A stretch of DNA of 64,000 nucleotides from Candidatus Methylomirabilota bacterium (GTDB taxonomy: Bacteria; Methylomirabilota; Methylomirabilia; Rokubacteriales; CSP1-6). A model generated the notes under the pieces. It was not told the DNA's origin and did not search any database. It was given only the letters and a program-made list of their open reading frames with translations. Positions 15,204 to 62,701 of this stretch are shown piece after piece. The stretch lies in NCBI GenBank assembly GCA_035936835.1, contig DASYVT010000199.1, positions 1 to 64,000 of the forward strand, given 5' to 3'. A program made the position numbers and the translations under genes. Each line of letters opens with the position of its first letter. Position 1 is the stretch's first letter.

Positions 15204-15968
15204 CTACGATATTCCGTTCGCACAACGGAACCCGATCACGGTGTTCCGGAGGTCCGGCATAATACTGAGGCGGCTCGTCGTCCGCAGGAGAGACGGCAGG
15301 TAGCCCCAGGACCCTCCACGGAGGACCTTCCACGGTCCGGTCTCCGGGCCCCGCGGGTTCCGCCGGGGGCTGCGTTCGTAATAGTCCTTCGCGTACCAGT
15401 CGGCGACCCACTCCCACACGTTGCCCGCCATATCGTAAGCTCCGTATGGGCTCACCCCGCTCGGGTACGAGCCGACCGGCGCAGGCTTGTTCCGCTGGCT
15501 CTCTTTCGAGTTCGCCCGGCTGGAGTCCCACTGCTCACCCCACGGATACGTCCGTCCATCGTCGCCGCGCGCGGCCTTTTCCCACTCAGCCTCCGTCGGC
15601 AACCGCTTCCCGACCCATCGACAATACGCCTCAGCGTCGTGCCAGCTCACGCCCACGACCGGCTGGGAGGCACCATTGAGGTGGCTGTCGCTCCAGAACC
15701 GTGGCACCGCACGATTGGTGGCCTCCATGAAGCGCTGGTAGAGCCCGTTGGTGATCTCGTACCTATCGATGTAGTAGGCATCAAGATCGACGCGATGGCG
15801 GGGCTTCTCGTCGTCGTTACCGTCGTCGCTCCCCATCCAGAACTCGCCTGCCGGAACCAGCACCATCTCGGCACCATTGTCGGCTCGGACGGCCTGCTCC
15901 GCGCCGAAACCTACGGTGGACGCGAAGGCAACCATCATGCACGTCACCCCAGGTGCGATCCTGTTCAT
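15204..15968 (-). CDS. Exported SUMF1/formylglycine-generating-enzyme-family protein without catalytic Cys
   Basis: A 254-residue protein with an N-terminal signal peptide (MNRIAPGVTCMMVAFASTVG, cleavage near AVRA) and a complete SUMF1 domain (PF03781). MVLVPAGEFWMGSDDGNDDE begins the domain, followed by GKRLPTEAEWEKAARG, DMAGNVWEWVADWY, LRGGSWGY and IGFRCA. In true formylglycine-generating enzymes two cysteines lie in the segment before the final strand; here that segment reads RTTSRLSIMPDLRN without cysteine. It is therefore probably a binding or structural member. A longer GTG start at 16022 exists but adds no signal-like sequence. It is the last gene of the peroxiredoxin operon. Confidence 0.85.
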   Translation of the reverse strand: MNRIAPGVTCMMVAFASTVGFGAEQAVRADNGAEMVLVPAGEFWMGSDDGNDDEKPRHRVDLDAYYIDRYEITNGLYQRFMEATNRAVPRFWSDSHLNGASQPVVGVSWHDAEAYCRWVGKRLPTEAEWEKAARGDDGRTYPWGEQWDSSRANSKESQRNKPAPVGSYPSGVSPYGAYDMAGNVWEWVADWYAKDYYERSPRRNPRGPETGPWKVLRGGSWGYLPSLLRTTSRLSIMPDLRNTVIGFRCANGIS

Positions 15969-16074
15969 CTTCGGGCGATGGGCATGGTCGGACGCCACGT
16001 GCAAGAGTCCGATCCGCGGCACCTTTCACACCGGCCGGGGTCGCGCCCACGAGCGCGGAGAGGAACGCAATCGA

Positions 16075-17055
16075 TCATGGAATGAGTCGATCCGCCCGCA
16101 GCAGCAATGATTGTGAAATCGTAAGGCCGAGCGTCTTGGCGGTCTTGAGGTTGATGACCAGCTCGAACGTCGTCGGCTGTTCAACAGGCAGATCGGCCGG
16201 CTTCGTCCCTTTGAGAATCTTGTCCACCAGGCGGGCAGCCTGGCGGCCCAACTCATAATTGCTCGCAGAATAGCTGGCCAGTCCGGTCCGCTCCACATAG
16301 AACGATTCGTCGAACATCGTTGGGATCGCCCGCCTGGGCGCGATCTCCAGAATAAGACCGGGGATGTTCAACGAGAGGTGCCGGGGCGAGAATATTCCGT
16401 CCACCTCACCCTTCCGGACCCCGGTGATCGCCGCTCGGGCCTCCTCTTCGGTCCGCACCGGTTTTTCCACGAGCGTGAGGCCGAGGCGGCGCGCGGCGTC
16501 GCGGTACACCTCCAGTCTCGAGACAGCGAGTGCGTTTGTCGCGTCGTAGACCAAGAGAACGCGTTTCAGGCCCGGGATGAGCTCGCGAAAGATCTCCATT
16601 CGCTTCGGCACGAGCTCGAGCTCGGCGATCCCAGTGATGTTTCCACCGGGGCGCGCGAAGCTCGTCACCAGTCCTGCTCCTACCGGGTCGCTCCCGCCCA
16701 CGAAGACGATCGGGATCCGATTCGTCGCCATCTGGGCGGCCTTCGCCTCATTGCCTCCTCCACTCGCGACAATGATATCCACCCCGCGGCGGACGAGGGC
16801 ACGGGCTGCCTCGGGTAGCTCGGCGACGTTGCCCTGTGTGAAGCGCACTCCGATCACGAAGGTCTCGTTCTCGCGGTATCCAAGATCCTGAAGGCCGTCG
16901 CGGAGCCCGACGATGGCCGGCGTCGGTCCCCATGACTCCGTCAGTGCTCCGATCTTGACCAGGCGAGGCGCTTGCGCGTCGGTCGCGCGCGCCATCGGCC
17001 CTGCGAGCGTGAGCACGATTCCGAGCACAAGCAGAACGCCGCGGCCTGCCGTCAT
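16075..17055 (-). CDS. PF04392-type ABC transporter substrate-binding protein
   Basis: A 326-residue exported binding protein of the ABC_sub_bind family (PF04392). The signal peptide is VLLVLGIVLTLAGPMARATD, and the mature protein starts near PRLVKIGALTE. Family motifs are VAELPEAARALVRRGVDIIV, IPIVFVGGSDPVGAGLV, SFARPGGNITGI and GRQAARLVDKILKGTKPADL. ATG 17055 overlaps the stop of the TlpA gene (ATGA), so it is coupled to it. Relatives are often encoded without permeases, as here, and may act as sensors or with distant permeases. The ligand is unknown; the coupling to a thioredoxin is notable. Confidence 0.9.
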   Translation of the reverse strand: MTAGRGVLLVLGIVLTLAGPMARATDAQAPRLVKIGALTESWGPTPAIVGLRDGLQDLGYRENETFVIGVRFTQGNVAELPEAARALVRRGVDIIVASGGGNEAKAAQMATNRIPIVFVGGSDPVGAGLVTSFARPGGNITGIAELELVPKRMEIFRELIPGLKRVLLVYDATNALAVSRLEVYRDAARRLGLTLVEKPVRTEEEARAAITGVRKGEVDGIFSPRHLSLNIPGLILEIAPRRAIPTMFDESFYVERTGLASYSASNYELGRQAARLVDKILKGTKPADLPVEQPTTFELVINLKTAKTLGLTISQSLLLRADRLIP

Positions 17056-17669
17056 CGGGGGGCCGGACCTGGGGCCGGCTCGGCCAGCAGCGCCGCGATA
17101 AGCGCGCGGGCCGGCGCACTCTCCCACTGGCGAGGTCCGATGGCCAAGGCGATGGCGCGTCCATCCCGGCCGACGACGAACGTCGTCGGAAGCCCAATGA
17201 CACCGTACAGGGCATTGATCTTGCCGTCCCGATCAAGCACGAGTGGGAACGTCAGGCCCAGCTCCTTGGCATAGCGCCTGACAGCCTCCTTGCTCTCCCG
17301 GGTATTGACCCCGATGATGGCGAGTCCCCGCGACGAGAACTCGCGCTGGAGCCGCTCCAGCGCGGGCATCTCTACCCGACATTCGAGACACCAGCTCGCC
17401 CAGAAGGTCAGAACAATGACCGTCCCTCGGTACTCCGTCATCGACAGTTGCCGGGCGTCGAGCGTGCTGCCACTGAACTGGGGAGGCGCCGTGCGGGAGG
17501 TATAGCCACGGAGGTCGAGGGTCTTGAGAAGAGATCCCAGCGCCGGCTCGTCGGCGCTCGCGGCACCGGCCAGGACAGCAATGAGCAGCCCGAACGCGAG
17601 CAGCCCTGCCCGGGCGGTGAGCCAGGCGGGCGGCCATGCGTCCATCGCCGCCGGGCGACTCGGCGTCAT
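17052..17669 (-). CDS. TlpA-like periplasmic thioredoxin with CLEC active site
   Basis: A 205-residue TlpA/ResA-type thiol-disulfide oxidoreductase (PF08534/PF00578). A signal peptide or anchor spans residues 20-38 (ARAGLLAFGLLIAVLAG). The redox motif is WASWCLECRVEMPALERL near residue 95, and the cis-proline loop is GLPTTFVV. It starts 2 bp after the stop of a cysteine-free selenocysteine peroxiredoxin and overlaps the downstream binding protein by 4 bp. This makes it the best candidate reductant for that peroxiredoxin in the periplasm. The partner role is inference from gene order and from the missing resolving thiol. Confidence 0.92.
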   Translation of the reverse strand: MTPSRPAAMDAWPPAWLTARAGLLAFGLLIAVLAGAASADEPALGSLLKTLDLRGYTSRTAPPQFSGSTLDARQLSMTEYRGTVIVLTFWASWCLECRVEMPALERLQREFSSRGLAIIGVNTRESKEAVRRYAKELGLTFPLVLDRDGKINALYGVIGLPTTFVVGRDGRAIALAIGPRQWESAPARALIAALLAEPAPGPAPR

Positions 17670-17671
17670 GG

Positions 17672-18235
17672 TCAGCGCTTGGCGAGCACCTCTCGGATAT
17701 CCCGCAGGAGGGTGTCGCTATACACAACCGTCGTCCCGCCGTTCTCGATGATCCACTTCTTGCGGATGATGCCCTGCGGATCAATCAGAAAAAGCGACCT
17801 GTGCGCCAACATATTTTTCTCATTGAAGACCCCGTAACTGCGCATGAGCTTCCGGTCGGGGAAGTCGCTGAGCAGCGGGTACGGCAGCTTCAGCGATTCG
17901 GCGAACGTCTGCTGCGAGAAGGTCAGGTTAGCGCTGGCGGCGAGGTTCTGGATGCCCAGGTCTTCGAAGCTCTTATAGCTGGCCTTCCTGGCCAACAGGT
18001 TCGCCGCTCACGTCGGAACGAAGTCGGCGCCGTAGAACTCGAGGAGAACCCACTTCTTCCCCCGAAAGTCGCTCAGCGAGATGTCGGATCCAGTGGTGCT
18101 CGCCAGCGTGAAGGCGGGCGCCGGCTCGCCCACCTCCACCGCCCTCGCCGGCCCTGGACCGACGGCGACCACGGTCAGTCCCAGTACCGTTGCCAGCAGC
18201 ACGACCCCAAACGTTCGGCTCACGAAGTGCACCAT
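17672..18235 (-). CDS. prxU: Selenocysteine peroxiredoxin, exported, cysteine-free (copy 1)
   Basis: A 187-residue peroxiredoxin (AhpC/TSA family) if the in-frame TGA at 18010-18008 is read as selenocysteine. The N-terminal part has a signal peptide (residues 7-32) and VEVGEPAPAFTLASTTG. The active-site strand is EFYGADFVPT followed by UGA and AANL. The frame continues with [20 protein letters not shown] and HRSLFLIDPQGIIRKKW, the family's C-terminal half including the conserved active-site Arg. The UGA stands where the peroxidatic Cys belongs. There is no cysteine anywhere, so resolution needs an external thiol. A SECIS-like hairpin follows. The gene ends 2 bp before TlpA, and GGGGGAGG precedes the start. 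Standard gene calling would split it at 18008. Confidence 0.9.
17966..18010 (-). promoter_or_regulatory. Bacterial SECIS-like hairpin after UGA (copy 1)
   Basis: Counting from the base after UGA, GUUGGCC (+12 to +18) pairs with GGCCAGC (+24 to +30) around the loop AGGAA (+19 to +23); plus-strand coordinates of the hairpin are 17978-17996. A second, outer pairing of +6 to +11 with +37 to +42 has five of six pairs. The position and the G-containing loop fit the bacterial SECIS that binds SelB. Confidence 0.75.
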
Positions 18236-18287
18236 GTCGGCATCCTCCCCCGCGAAAGTGTCAGTGTTCGTTCTTGGACGGTGCGTC

Positions 18288-18884
18288 CTACTGCTTCCCA
18301 GTCATCGCGCGCGCAACCTTGAGTATGTCCTCGCTGGGGAAAATGGCGTTGTTCGCGATCAACCACTTCCCCCGGACGATCCCCTGCTGATCCACCAGGA
18401 AGAACGCCCGCCGTGCAGCCGTATTCGGTCGATGCTCGACCACCACACCGCTGTCCTTCAAGGGGCCAATCTGGTCGGGCCAAAGGACGCCGTAATTCCG
18501 GATAACCTGGAGGTCCGGAGAGTCGCTGAGGAGCGGGTACGGGAGCTGAAGCGACTCCGCGAACGTCTGTTGTGCGAAGGTGTGGTCAGCGCTGATCCCG
18601 AGAATCTGGACGTTTAAATCCCGGAACCTGCCATAGTCGACCTTCCTGGTCGACAGGTTCGCCGCTCACGTTGGGGACTCGCCGACGTAGAACTCGATAA
18701 GAACCAGCTTGTTGCCGCGGAACTGGCTCAGGCTGATCTTCTCCCCCGTCGTGCCGGGGAGCGTAAAGTCCGGCGCCTTCTCCCCGACCTCCAGGGCTGT
18801 GGTCACGCTGACTCCTACGAGCACGCCGGCCAGCAGCACGCCCAACAGCAACCAGCTTCTCACGAGCTTCGGCAGCCTGCTCAT
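18288..18884 (-). CDS. prxU: Selenocysteine peroxiredoxin, exported, cysteine-free (copy 2)
   Basis: A 198-residue peroxiredoxin with one in-frame TGA (18668-18666) at the peroxidatic position. Residues 1-31 are a signal peptide ([20 protein letters not shown]), then [17 protein letters not shown]. The active site is [21 protein letters not shown] translated the frame past the UGA by hand. It stays open to TAG 18290-18288 and contains [17 protein letters not shown] and [18 protein letters not shown]. Copy 1 has the same order, with [17 protein letters not shown]. There is no cysteine in the protein. Start ATG 18884 has AGGAG 7 bp upstream. It is the first gene of the operon; copy 1 starts 52 bp downstream. 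It reduces peroxides by family. Confidence 0.9.
18624..18668 (-). promoter_or_regulatory. Bacterial SECIS-like hairpin after UGA (copy 2)
   Basis: After UGA, GUCGACC (+12 to +18) pairs perfectly with GGUCGAC (+24 to +30) around the loop AGGAA; an outer stem GAACCU (+6 to +11) with AGGUUC (+37 to +42) is also perfect. Plus-strand hairpin coordinates are 18636-18654. Compared with copy 1, two of the seven inner pairs differ by compensatory changes while loop and spacing are identical, which supports a selected RNA structure. Confidence 0.8.
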
Positions 18885-19323
18885 GTGTCGATCTCCTGGC
18901 CGTCAAGGTACACCATCTGCCCTGGCTCCACCTGACTTGCTCGTTCGAATTAGGAACTCTAATGCTCCCGCTCAGAAAGCTCAGCAGTCTTCGGCCCGCC
19001 GAGCGGAGTGAGCGACAAGGACGTGGCGCACGCCGTCCCGCCGTTCAAGAACCACTTGAGACCTGAACGGGTCAATGCTGGTCGTGTTCGGTCATTGCGG
19101 GGGCCCGCAATCACCGACATCGACCTGCCTGACCTTCGGGGTTGATCTCGACTAGGGAAGTGCCGCGGGCGGCGCAGCTCAAGGTCTTGGCCGGGCCACC
19201 CATGACGTCTGCTCAGGTCATCGAGGGAATCCTGATCAACCACGTCAACGAGCATCTGGGGAGCATCAAGGCCACCACCGGCGCCAAGCAGCCGATGCGG
19301 TGTTGCGGACCGTCGGCTCGGAG
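18885..19323. other. Intergenic region between peroxiredoxin operon and ABC importer
   Basis: About 440 bp without a supported gene. It should contain the promoter of the peroxiredoxin operon (upstream of 18884 on the minus strand), one copy of the dispersed repeat (19094-19146), and about 170 bp before the permease stop in which I recognise nothing. Confidence 0.5.
19094..19146 (+). repeat. Dispersed ~50-bp repeat, copy 2
   Basis: The second copy of the repeat at 14716, same orientation, about 86% identical. It opens with the palindrome ATTGCGGGGGCCCGCAAT (an 8-bp stem) and runs through CTGCCTGACCTTCGGGGTTG. Together with copy 1 it brackets the 4.3 kb that hold the peroxiredoxin operon. Confidence 0.7.
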
Positions 19324-33264: not shown

Positions 33265-34506
33265 ATGAGCACATCGCCTCCGCGTCGCGAATGGCCCGGC
33301 GCGACTCTCGCCCGCGTCCCGTACTGGGTCTACGGGGACGAGGCCAACTACCGCGCCGAGCTGCGGCGCATCTTCGAGGGCCCCGTCTGGAACTATGTTG
33401 GCCTGGAGTCCGACCTCGCCCGGACTGGCGACTTCCGCACGACCTTCGTGGGCGAGATGCCGGTGGTCGTGGTGCGGGGCGAGACGGGCGAGATCCATGC
33501 CTTCGAGAACCGCTGCGCCCATCGCGGCGCCCTCATCGCGCTCGACGACTGCGGCTCGACCGGCAAGCGCTTCCAGTGCGTCTATCACGCGTGGAGCTAC
33601 GACCTGCGGGGCGCGCTCGTGGGAGTGGCCTTCGAGAAGGGCGCGAACGGCAAGGGCGGGATGCCGGAGTCCTTCTGCAAGGCGGACCATGGACCGCGCC
33701 AGCTCCGAACGGCCACGATCGGCGGCCTGGTGTTCGCCAGCCTGTCGCCGGCGGCGCCGCCCATCGAGGAGTATCTGGGAGAGGCGGTGCGGGCGCGGCT
33801 CCTTCGCGTGCTCGGCAGGCCGGTCCAGGTGCTGGGCCGCTTCGTCCAGGCCCTGCCGAACAACTGGAAGCTCTACGTCGAGAACGTGAAGGACACCTAT
33901 CACGCGAGCTTGCTCCACACCTTCTTCAGCACCTTCCACATCTCGCGCCTCACCCAGGGCGGCGGGGTGCTCGTCAGCCCTGACGGCGCCCACCACGTCA
34001 GCGCCACCATCGATCGCGGCGACGACCGGGGCAGCACCGCTTACCGCGACCAGGGCATCCGCTCGGAGAGCGACCGCTACCGCCTCACCGATCCGAGCCT
34101 CCTCGACACGGTGAAGGAGTTCGGCGACGACATCCAGCTCCAGATCCTCACCGTCTTCCCGAACCTGGTGGTGCAGCAGGTGTACAACGCGCTCGCGGTG
34201 CGCCAGGTGCTGCCCAAGGGACCGGGCGCGATGGAGCTGCACTGGACCTACCTGGGCTTCGCCGACGACACCGCCGAGATGCGGCGCCGGCGGCTCCGCC
34301 AGGCCAACCTCGTCGGGCCGGCCGGGTACGTCTCGATGGAAGACGGCTGCGTGGGCGGCTTCGTCCAGCGCGGCGTCGCCGCCGCGGAGGATGCACTGTC
34401 GGTCGTGAACATGGGCGGGGAGGGCGCCGAGTCCCAGGACACGCGGGCCACCGAGGCAGCGGTGCGTGGCTTCTGGAAGGCGTATCGCGCCTACATGGGC
34501 TACTAG
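33265..34506 (+). CDS. Rieske aromatic-ring-hydroxylating dioxygenase, alpha subunit
   Basis: A 413-residue oxygenase large subunit. The Rieske [2Fe-2S] site is CAHRG and CVYH, about 20 residues apart (ENRCAHRG to RFQCVYHAW). The non-heme iron site is DTYHASLLH in the C-terminal domain, with an Asp in MEDGCVGGF as further candidate. The family adds both atoms of O2 to aromatic or related substrates using electrons from a ferredoxin and reductase, which are not seen here. It is followed after 2 bp by the beta subunit, forming one transcript. Confidence 0.94.
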
Positions 34507-62146: not shown

Positions 62147-62701
62147 TTAGGCCCCGAAATCCTTTAGCGCCTTGAGGACCTCGTCCGCGCTCAGCAGATC
62201 GAGCGAGTTGTCCATGACCTTCACGAATCTGACCGTGCCGGTCTTGTCGATGATGAAGAACGCCCGCTTCGCGTATCGGTAGACCGGGCTGTCCTCCTTC
62301 GTCACCATCGCGCCGTACGCGGGGAGCATCTGGCGCCGGAAATCCGACAGGAGCAGCTGCCTGCTGCCGTTCTCCTTCCGCCACGCGTTGAGAGCGAGGA
62401 AGTGATCCGTGCTGACGCCCACGACCTGGGCGCCCGCGGCTTCGAACTGCGGCAGGGCCGCCTCGAAGCCGTTCAGTTCCTTCGTTCAGGTGGGGGTAAA
62501 CGCCGCGATGAATGTGTAGAGGACCACGGGCCCTTTGGCCGTCAGGTCGGAGAGCTTGATCGGCTTGCCCTCAGGCCCCATGAGCGCGAAGTCGGGCGCC
62601 TTCTCTCCAACCTCGAGCGCTCCGGCCGCGCCCGCAACGACCAAGGCGAGCAGCGCGCCGGCAAGAACACCCAAGATCAGTGACCGTTTCGTGGGCATCA
62701 T
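62147..62701 (-). CDS. prxU: Selenocysteine peroxiredoxin, exported, cysteine-free (copy 3)
   Basis: A 184-residue peroxiredoxin with TGA at 62488-62486 in the peroxidatic position. Signal peptide SLILGVLAGALLALVVAGAA, then [17 protein letters not shown]. The active site reads TFIAAFTPT-UGA-TKELNGF, the classic T-P-x-C(U)-TKE pattern. The frame continues with FEAAGAQVVGVSTDHFLALN, SDFRRQMLPAYGAMV and RYAKRAFFIIDKTGTVRFVK to TAA 62147. The Arg before AFF is the active-site Arg. There is no cysteine in the whole protein. It is more divergent from copies 1 and 2 than they are from each other and stands alone, 44 kb away, beside a small lipoprotein gene and a HicA gene. Confidence 0.9.
62444..62488 (-). 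promoter_or_regulatory. Bacterial SECIS-like hairpin after UGA (copy 3)
   Basis: After UGA, GAACUG (+7 to +12) pairs with CAGUUC (+37 to +42), and CGGC (+15 to +18) with GCCG (+33 to +36); the apical part holds GAGG at +22 to +25. The outer stem sits at nearly the same offset as in copies 1 and 2. The apical geometry is less clear than in those two. Confidence 0.6.

Follow-up and report, generated by a model that had tools for sequence, protein, structure and literature searches.

Peroxiredoxins in which selenocysteine (Sec) replaces the peroxidatic Cys have long been known (Sargasso Sea survey, PMC1088965; PMC13188914, Table 1), and the meaning of the PxxxTxxC/U signature for peroxiredoxins and for their Sec-containing counterparts has been set out (PMC13188914). 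Among the described families, PrxU (TxxU; NF040737; PMC13188914, Table 1) combines an AhpC/TSA domain with Sec in the place of the peroxidatic Cys, while the Prx-like thiol:disulfide oxidoreductase selenoproteins (UxxC) and Prx-SUH (NF045827, CxxU) are likewise peroxiredoxin-related (PMC13188914). The phylum Methylomirabilota, to which the DNA studied here belongs, is itself Sec-rich, with 63 genes of one MAG predicted to encode selenoproteins (Deng et al. 2026, cited in PMC13188914), and genes of the kind described below are easily truncated in annotation (PMC13188914). We analyzed a window, i.e., the whole stretch of 64,000 nucleotides, in which two tandem genes, referred to as A and B (Table 1), share with PrxU the AhpC/TSA domain and, very probably, the use of Sec, and differ from it in the active-site signature and in their gene neighborhood.

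Genes A and B each contain exactly one in-frame TGA, situated at the peroxidatic position (U73 in A, U76 in B) and in the same context in both, P-T-TGA-A-A-N-L. The frame stays open for a further 125 codons in A and 111 codons in B, just as an earlier sequence-only reading of this DNA had stated. The two genes are separated by 52 nt, and Shine-Dalgarno-like stretches were found upstream of the ATG of both; a scan for promoters and terminators revealed none above chance. According to PF00578, both belong to the AhpC/TSA family, with scores of 101.9 bits (A) and 112.5 bits (B) against a Pfam gathering score of 26. Neither protein contains a Cys, and both begin with an N-terminal segment that is hydrophobic when judged by eye, by which they look exported. 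When compared to genome G059, dN/dS after the TGA was approximately 0.35 in A (15 changed codons) and 0.38 in B (29 changed codons). Before the TGA, it was 0.70 in A and 0.31 in B, so that the contrast between the two sides is no proof by itself; the counts are also small.

Table 1. Predicted features of the selenoprotein locus, with positions in the window.
Feature	Coordinates	Strand	Remarks
Gene A, AhpC/TSA-domain selenoprotein (predicted)	18288..18884	-	198 aa, Sec73, stop TAG; PF00578 E 3e-29
Gene A in-frame TGA (Sec codon)	18666..18668	-	ORF reading
Gene A SECIS-like hairpin	18636..18654	-	7-bp stem GUCGACC/GGUCGAC, loop AGGAA
Gene B, AhpC/TSA-domain selenoprotein (predicted)	17672..18235	-	187 aa, Sec76, stop TGA; PF00578 E 1.5e-32
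Gene B in-frame TGA (Sec codon)	18008..18010	-	ORF reading
Gene B SECIS-like hairpin	17978..17996	-	7-bp stem GUUGGCC/GGCCAGC, loop AGGAA
TlpA/ResA-like thioredoxin, WCLEC	17052..17669	-	begins 2 nt downstream of gene B; candidate reductant
PF04392 (ABC_sub_bind) substrate-binding-protein gene	16075..17127	-	E 3.1e-55; third cassette member
FGE-sulfatase-domain protein	15204..16022	-	next in line after the PF04392 gene

When scored against the models of the described families, A and B reached 44.8 and 74.8 bits with PrxU NF040737 (cut-off 270) and 20.4 and 33.7 with Prx-SUH NF045827 (cut-off 298). PrxU also has a bacterial SECIS downstream. In contrast to PrxU, the two genes lack PxxxTxxU, encode the N-terminal hydrophobic segment, and have conserved TlpA-like and PF04392 neighbors, and in contrast to the UxxC type and Prx-SUH, they carry neither a Cys nor a further Sec at position +3 or -3, and Cys is absent from the rest of the proteins as well. 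In B, the classical signature is replaced by GADFVPTU, i.e., GxxxVxxU, with G at -7 and V at -3, while A has VGESPTU, which is one residue shorter, carries S at -3, and lacks the Pro. A conserved active-site Arg is a defining feature of classical peroxiredoxins, and this residue is present in both proteins (HRSLF in B, RRAFF in A) and in 47 of the 49 Sec-containing rows of the homolog alignment described below.

Regarding the fold, an AF2 model of B, built from a 14-row alignment with Cys substituted for Sec, had a mean pLDDT of 85 and placed residue 76 close to where a helix (residues 74-85) begins. The 50 PDB matches listed by Foldseek for this model were peroxiredoxins, for example Bcp4, Prx1, AhpC2, and the 1-Cys AhpE. 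The model of A was poorer, with a mean pLDDT of 72, falling to 54 across residues 71-80. Specifically, the modeled product of gene B appears to share its fold with the Bcp homolog Bcp4 (PDB 3hjp; Foldseek E 8.2e-16) and with the 1-Cys peroxiredoxin AhpE (PDB 1xxu; TM-score by target 0.92), at about 30% identity. The 3hjp chain bears Ser at the place aligned with the Sec of B, and AhpE is by name a Cys enzyme, whereas gene B has Sec and no PxxxT. The designation of A and B as peroxiredoxins in the sequence-only reading was therefore borne out for the domain and the fold (PF00578; PDB peroxiredoxins) and not for the PxxxTxxU signature or the PrxU model, whose cut-off was not reached. With PxxxTxxC lacking, the fold can be assigned with more certainty than peroxidase activity, and we place A and B in the AhpC/TSA domain family without filing them as classical peroxiredoxins or as PrxU.

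From +12 to +30 after each TGA lies a 7-bp hairpin with exact stem pairing; the earlier description, with AGGAA as the loop in both genes and stems that differ in sequence yet still pair, proved exact. The 19 nt of the hairpin have energies of -10.7 (A) and -11.0 (B) kcal/mol. We compared these elements to the bSECIS model in the legend of Fig. 2A of PMC13188914. The model has an apical loop of 3-9 nt and an upper stem of 4-16 bp, and A and B have a 5-nt loop and a 7-bp stem; it places a G at loop position 1 or 2, with G or U as the usual next base, and in both genes G occupies loop position 2 and is followed by G. The distance from the UGA to the apical loop is 16-37 nt in the model and 18 nt in A and B. 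The energy limit (MFE <= -7.5 kcal/mol) is reached by both genes and by 15 of the 17 TGA-containing sequences of their subfamily, the two outside it being gene B of L025 (-4.8 kcal/mol) and L029 (-7.3 kcal/mol). An Rfam scan of positions 17400-19100 returned a single match with an E of 1.4, below the gathering score.

The chance of obtaining such a stem was estimated with the peptide fixed and codons drawn according to the usage of nine window ORFs (200,000 draws per gene), and a 7/7 stem arose in 5.2% (A) and 3.4% (B) of the draws. The window contains 1593 TGA trinucleotides when every frame of the two strands is counted (830 + 763), and three of these have a 7/7 stem at +12, two of them being those of A and B. 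Folding of the 53-nt stretch from the TGA surpassed that of shuffles by just 1.45 SD (A) and 1.10 SD (B), and for this reason fold energy was not used as main evidence; tighter stretches fold better relative to shuffles, with a z of -4.06 for 37 nt of A and -2.40 for 27 nt of B. Fold energy aside, the case for the hairpin rests mainly on conservation and covariation within the subfamily, which comprises 17 distinct TGA sequences (A and B included, one being a broken copy) from 12 of the 95 genomes of the phylum. The AGGAA loop is invariant in all 17, and the stem pairs at 7/7 positions in 13 of them and at 6/7 in four. Paired cells account for 96.6% of the 119 (17 sequences x 7 pairs), compared to 0.8-48.7% after shifting either strand relative to the other by 1-3 columns. 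Two-sided changes occur in three of the seven pairs (5 cells), compared to one pair at a shift of +3, which supports the covariation claimed from the two genes of the window. In 500 shuffles, the observed percentage paired and covariation score were never reached, whereas the number of two-sided cells was reached by 2, that of pair types by 12, and that of two-sided pairs by 35, and in this comparison related sequences may beat shuffles without any structure.

Relatives with Cys at the same position provide a further comparison. Locus L054, from a MAG labeled Deltaproteobacteria, is 53% identical in its best segment and has TGC in place of the TGA. Its peptide AANLSARK is the same as in seven of the 17 Sec sequences, and its hairpin is lost, with 4/7 pairs and -0.2 kcal/mol compared to the values of A and B given above. 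Since L054 keeps the peptide but not the hairpin, the hairpin is not dictated by the peptide alone. Another Cys relative, L036, retains 3/7 pairs and has a different peptide. Both sit, with moderate support, inside Sec clades of the tree, a position that suggests a change from Sec to Cys, and for the function of SECIS elements in bacteria that are mainly known through metagenomes, L054 represents a natural control.

Homologs were collected by searching the 95 genomes of the phylum with the query P0001 (E <= 1e-10), which had matches in 90 of them, and most of the matches listed contained exactly one TGA. The loci used for the alignment came chiefly from the best 30 matches of this search, from 40 chosen stretches, and from another 80 loci, and represent a set picked by similarity, not a random sample. 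Across the 120 homologs that are distinct around the site, the column aligned with the TGA contained U in 49 rows, C in 69, R in one, and a gap in one, with Trp in none. The alternation of UGA and Cys that the sequence-only reading had anticipated for selenoproteins was thus found. Some of the C rows stem from proteins of the UxxC or CxxC type, whose second Cys is the residue that falls in the column. Excluding 10 rows in which position -3 or +3 is Cys or Sec, as well as a few short rows, left 107 rows, of which 47 had U and 60 had C. In raw counts, Pro at -7 was present in seven of the 47 U rows compared to 50 of the 60 C rows (117 rows less the 10 in which -3 or +3 is Cys or Sec). A general rule by which Sec goes with the loss of the catalytic Pro was rejected, as the five independent pairs on supported branches (eight in total) showed no trend, in a quick tree that still included the active-site columns; the association is retained as a description of the A/B clade.

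The A/B tandem was observed in the genome of the window (G000) and in G059 alone among the loci seen. Genes A and B are approximately 50% identical and fall into two separate tree lineages, indicating an old pair and no fresh duplication. A gene-A relative in G055:C216 (L137/L193) is broken, with one TGA, a TAA, and a split frame, and its hairpin still pairs at 7/7 positions. Another TGA-containing relative is located elsewhere in the genome of the window (L154, G000:C150; match 33729-34244, + strand), in a stretch that also has a thioredoxin-like frame of the UxxC type (FFWATWUPTC), whose TGA is followed by a hairpin.

Regarding the machinery for Sec, SelA (E 2.1e-149) and SelB (E 1.4e-111) are neighbors on contig C235 of G000, and a tRNA-Sec with the anticodon tca (ARAGORN) is situated on the same contig about 1.6 kb from SelA, with a score of 71.3 bits (gathering score 47). 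SelD is encoded on C183 with one in-frame TGA of its own, and the stretch 3' of this TGA also folds into a hairpin. The full sel set that the sequence-only reading had named as supporting evidence, i.e., selA, selB, selC, and selD, is accordingly present in one and the same genome. Within the subfamily, SelA and SelB were over the cut-off in nine of the 12 genomes (in G056 as fragments), while in G004 (76% complete), G077 (81%), and G087 (100%) SelA, SelB, and tRNA-Sec were all below it; the tRNA-Sec search covered these three genomes together with G000 and G060. A SelD with an in-frame TGA was found in G004, G077, G087, and G060, which makes an assembly gap likely in the first three, and given that selA, selB, and selC are located together in G000, a single gap could have removed all of them. 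G087, with none of these over the cut-off at a rated completeness of 100%, also bears TGA-containing Prx-like genes alongside its SelD. The distribution of SelA was tried as a discriminator and rejected as too wide, 84 of the 95 genomes having the gene.

The genes downstream of B recur in other genomes, a feature that the sequence-only reading had not mentioned. A TlpA-like homolog with the motif WA[ST]WCxxC lies closely downstream in 12 of the 13 intact subfamily loci; G040 lacks it, and of the two Prx-like copies in G004, one has it downstream and the second does not. The TlpA/ResA-like protein of the window itself scored below every NCBIfam cut-off. Homologs of the PF04392 protein, identified by similarity to the window protein and not by a Pfam scan one by one, lie downstream in all 13 intact loci, window included, and these loci span seven genera of three families; in the window, the true start of this gene is probably further in than that of the annotated ORF. 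The Cys relative L054 also has a PF04392 homolog nearby, separated from it by another open frame; none was found beside the more distant relatives L191 and L192. At the broken copy in G055:C216, neither a TlpA-like nor a PF04392 neighbor was found. The genome of the window contains 46 PF04392 matches (some partial), several of them in runs on C161, C139, and C63, so a single such neighbor could be due to chance, the repeated order hardly; common descent of the cassette is assumed. The FGE-sulfatase-domain protein had a homolog in G059:C170 alone among the 16 neighborhoods searched and is therefore probably outside the core cassette.

The machinery, the U/Cys alternation, and the covarying hairpin make it very probable that A and B are selenoproteins, in line with what the first reading had proposed. 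That the TGAs are instead true stops or nonsense mutations and the genes broken is highly improbable: standard gene calling does treat TGA as a stop, gene B terminates with this codon, and the related copy in G055:C216 is truly broken by a TGA and a TAA, yet the TGA column is common to 17 sequences from 12 genomes, selection continues after it, and the U/C alternation, the covariation of the hairpin, and the complete Sec machinery all argue against decay. An open frame alone cannot separate Sec from a UGA read as some other residue, through a Trp code or general read-through; such decoding is nevertheless highly improbable here, as relatives have Cys and never Trp at the column, a tRNA-Sec with anticodon tca is present, UGA serves as the stop of gene B, and the hairpin disappears in the Cys relative L054.

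With respect to function, we consider it likely that A and B are exported one-Sec peroxidases of the AhpC/TSA fold that acquire Sec through the UGA and the hairpin and are recycled by the TlpA-like partner, a reading built on the UGA position, the hairpin and its covariation, the Sec machinery, the fold model, and the cassette. The hairpin, beginning 11 nt past the UGA, would direct the decoding of this codon as Sec through tRNA-Sec and SelB, and the proteins would then be exported. The Sec would sit at the start of the helix where peroxiredoxins have their peroxidatic Cys, with the active-site Arg kept, and would most likely reduce peroxides outside the cytoplasm, being converted to a selenenic acid. 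As A and B have no Cys to resolve the oxidized Sec, its reduction would most likely be carried out by the TlpA-like WCLEC thioredoxin. The main rival to peroxidase activity also takes A and B as real selenoproteins and sees them as exported selenol redox relays or sensors, without peroxidase turnover, linked both to the TlpA-like protein and to a ligand that the PF04392 protein binds. The missing PxxxT, with the catalytic Pro and Thr replaced, the conserved association with a thioredoxin-like protein and a substrate-binding one, and the absence of Cys from A and B would all suit such a role, which we nonetheless regard as rather unlikely because the active-site Arg is kept in nearly all U rows, the structural matches listed are peroxiredoxins, and Sec could compensate for a weaker pocket. 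A wider proposal, which we regard as unlikely, would join an AhpC/TSA protein that carries Sec in an altered peroxidatic pocket, a dedicated TlpA-like reductant, and a PF04392 protein supplying or sensing the substrate into an undescribed exported selenium-dependent cassette. If true, selenocysteine chemistry would be coupled to extracytoplasmic ligand binding.

Since Sec peroxiredoxins and the large selenoproteomes of the phylum are already known, A and B are a variant of something known, and genes like them may already be among the 63 predictions of the Methylomirabilota MAG. The excerpted Table 1 of PMC13188914 contains no recognizable entry with the motif of A and B, and no description of the cassette with the altered active site was found in excerpts of PMC13188914, PMC9312934, PMC1088965, or related, mainly open-access, literature; none of the terms sought occur in the deep-Sep paper PMC12013277. 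What the locus adds is a Sec-using subfamily without the Pro/Thr signature that is held important for peroxidatic catalysis, and because the likely partner proteins come along with it, whether selenium can replace the Pro/Thr pocket is directly testable.

Additional genes with an in-frame TGA were observed outside this subfamily. A third peroxiredoxin-like gene of the window (62165-62680, - strand; FIAAFTPTUTKELNGF) belongs to a different Sec subfamily, with Thr at -3 and Ile at -7, and scores below every NCBIfam cut-off. Its TGA is followed by a long hairpin, with an energy of -24.8 kcal/mol over 54 nt and a z of -2.16 when a stretch of 71 nt is taken. Elsewhere in the phylum, a subfamily of the UxxC type with the motif FYRG[YS]WUPFC (L140, L142-L144, L146-L150, L153, L166, L167, and L173) has a different hairpin located further downstream, GCUCCAAGG...CUUGG[AG]GC.
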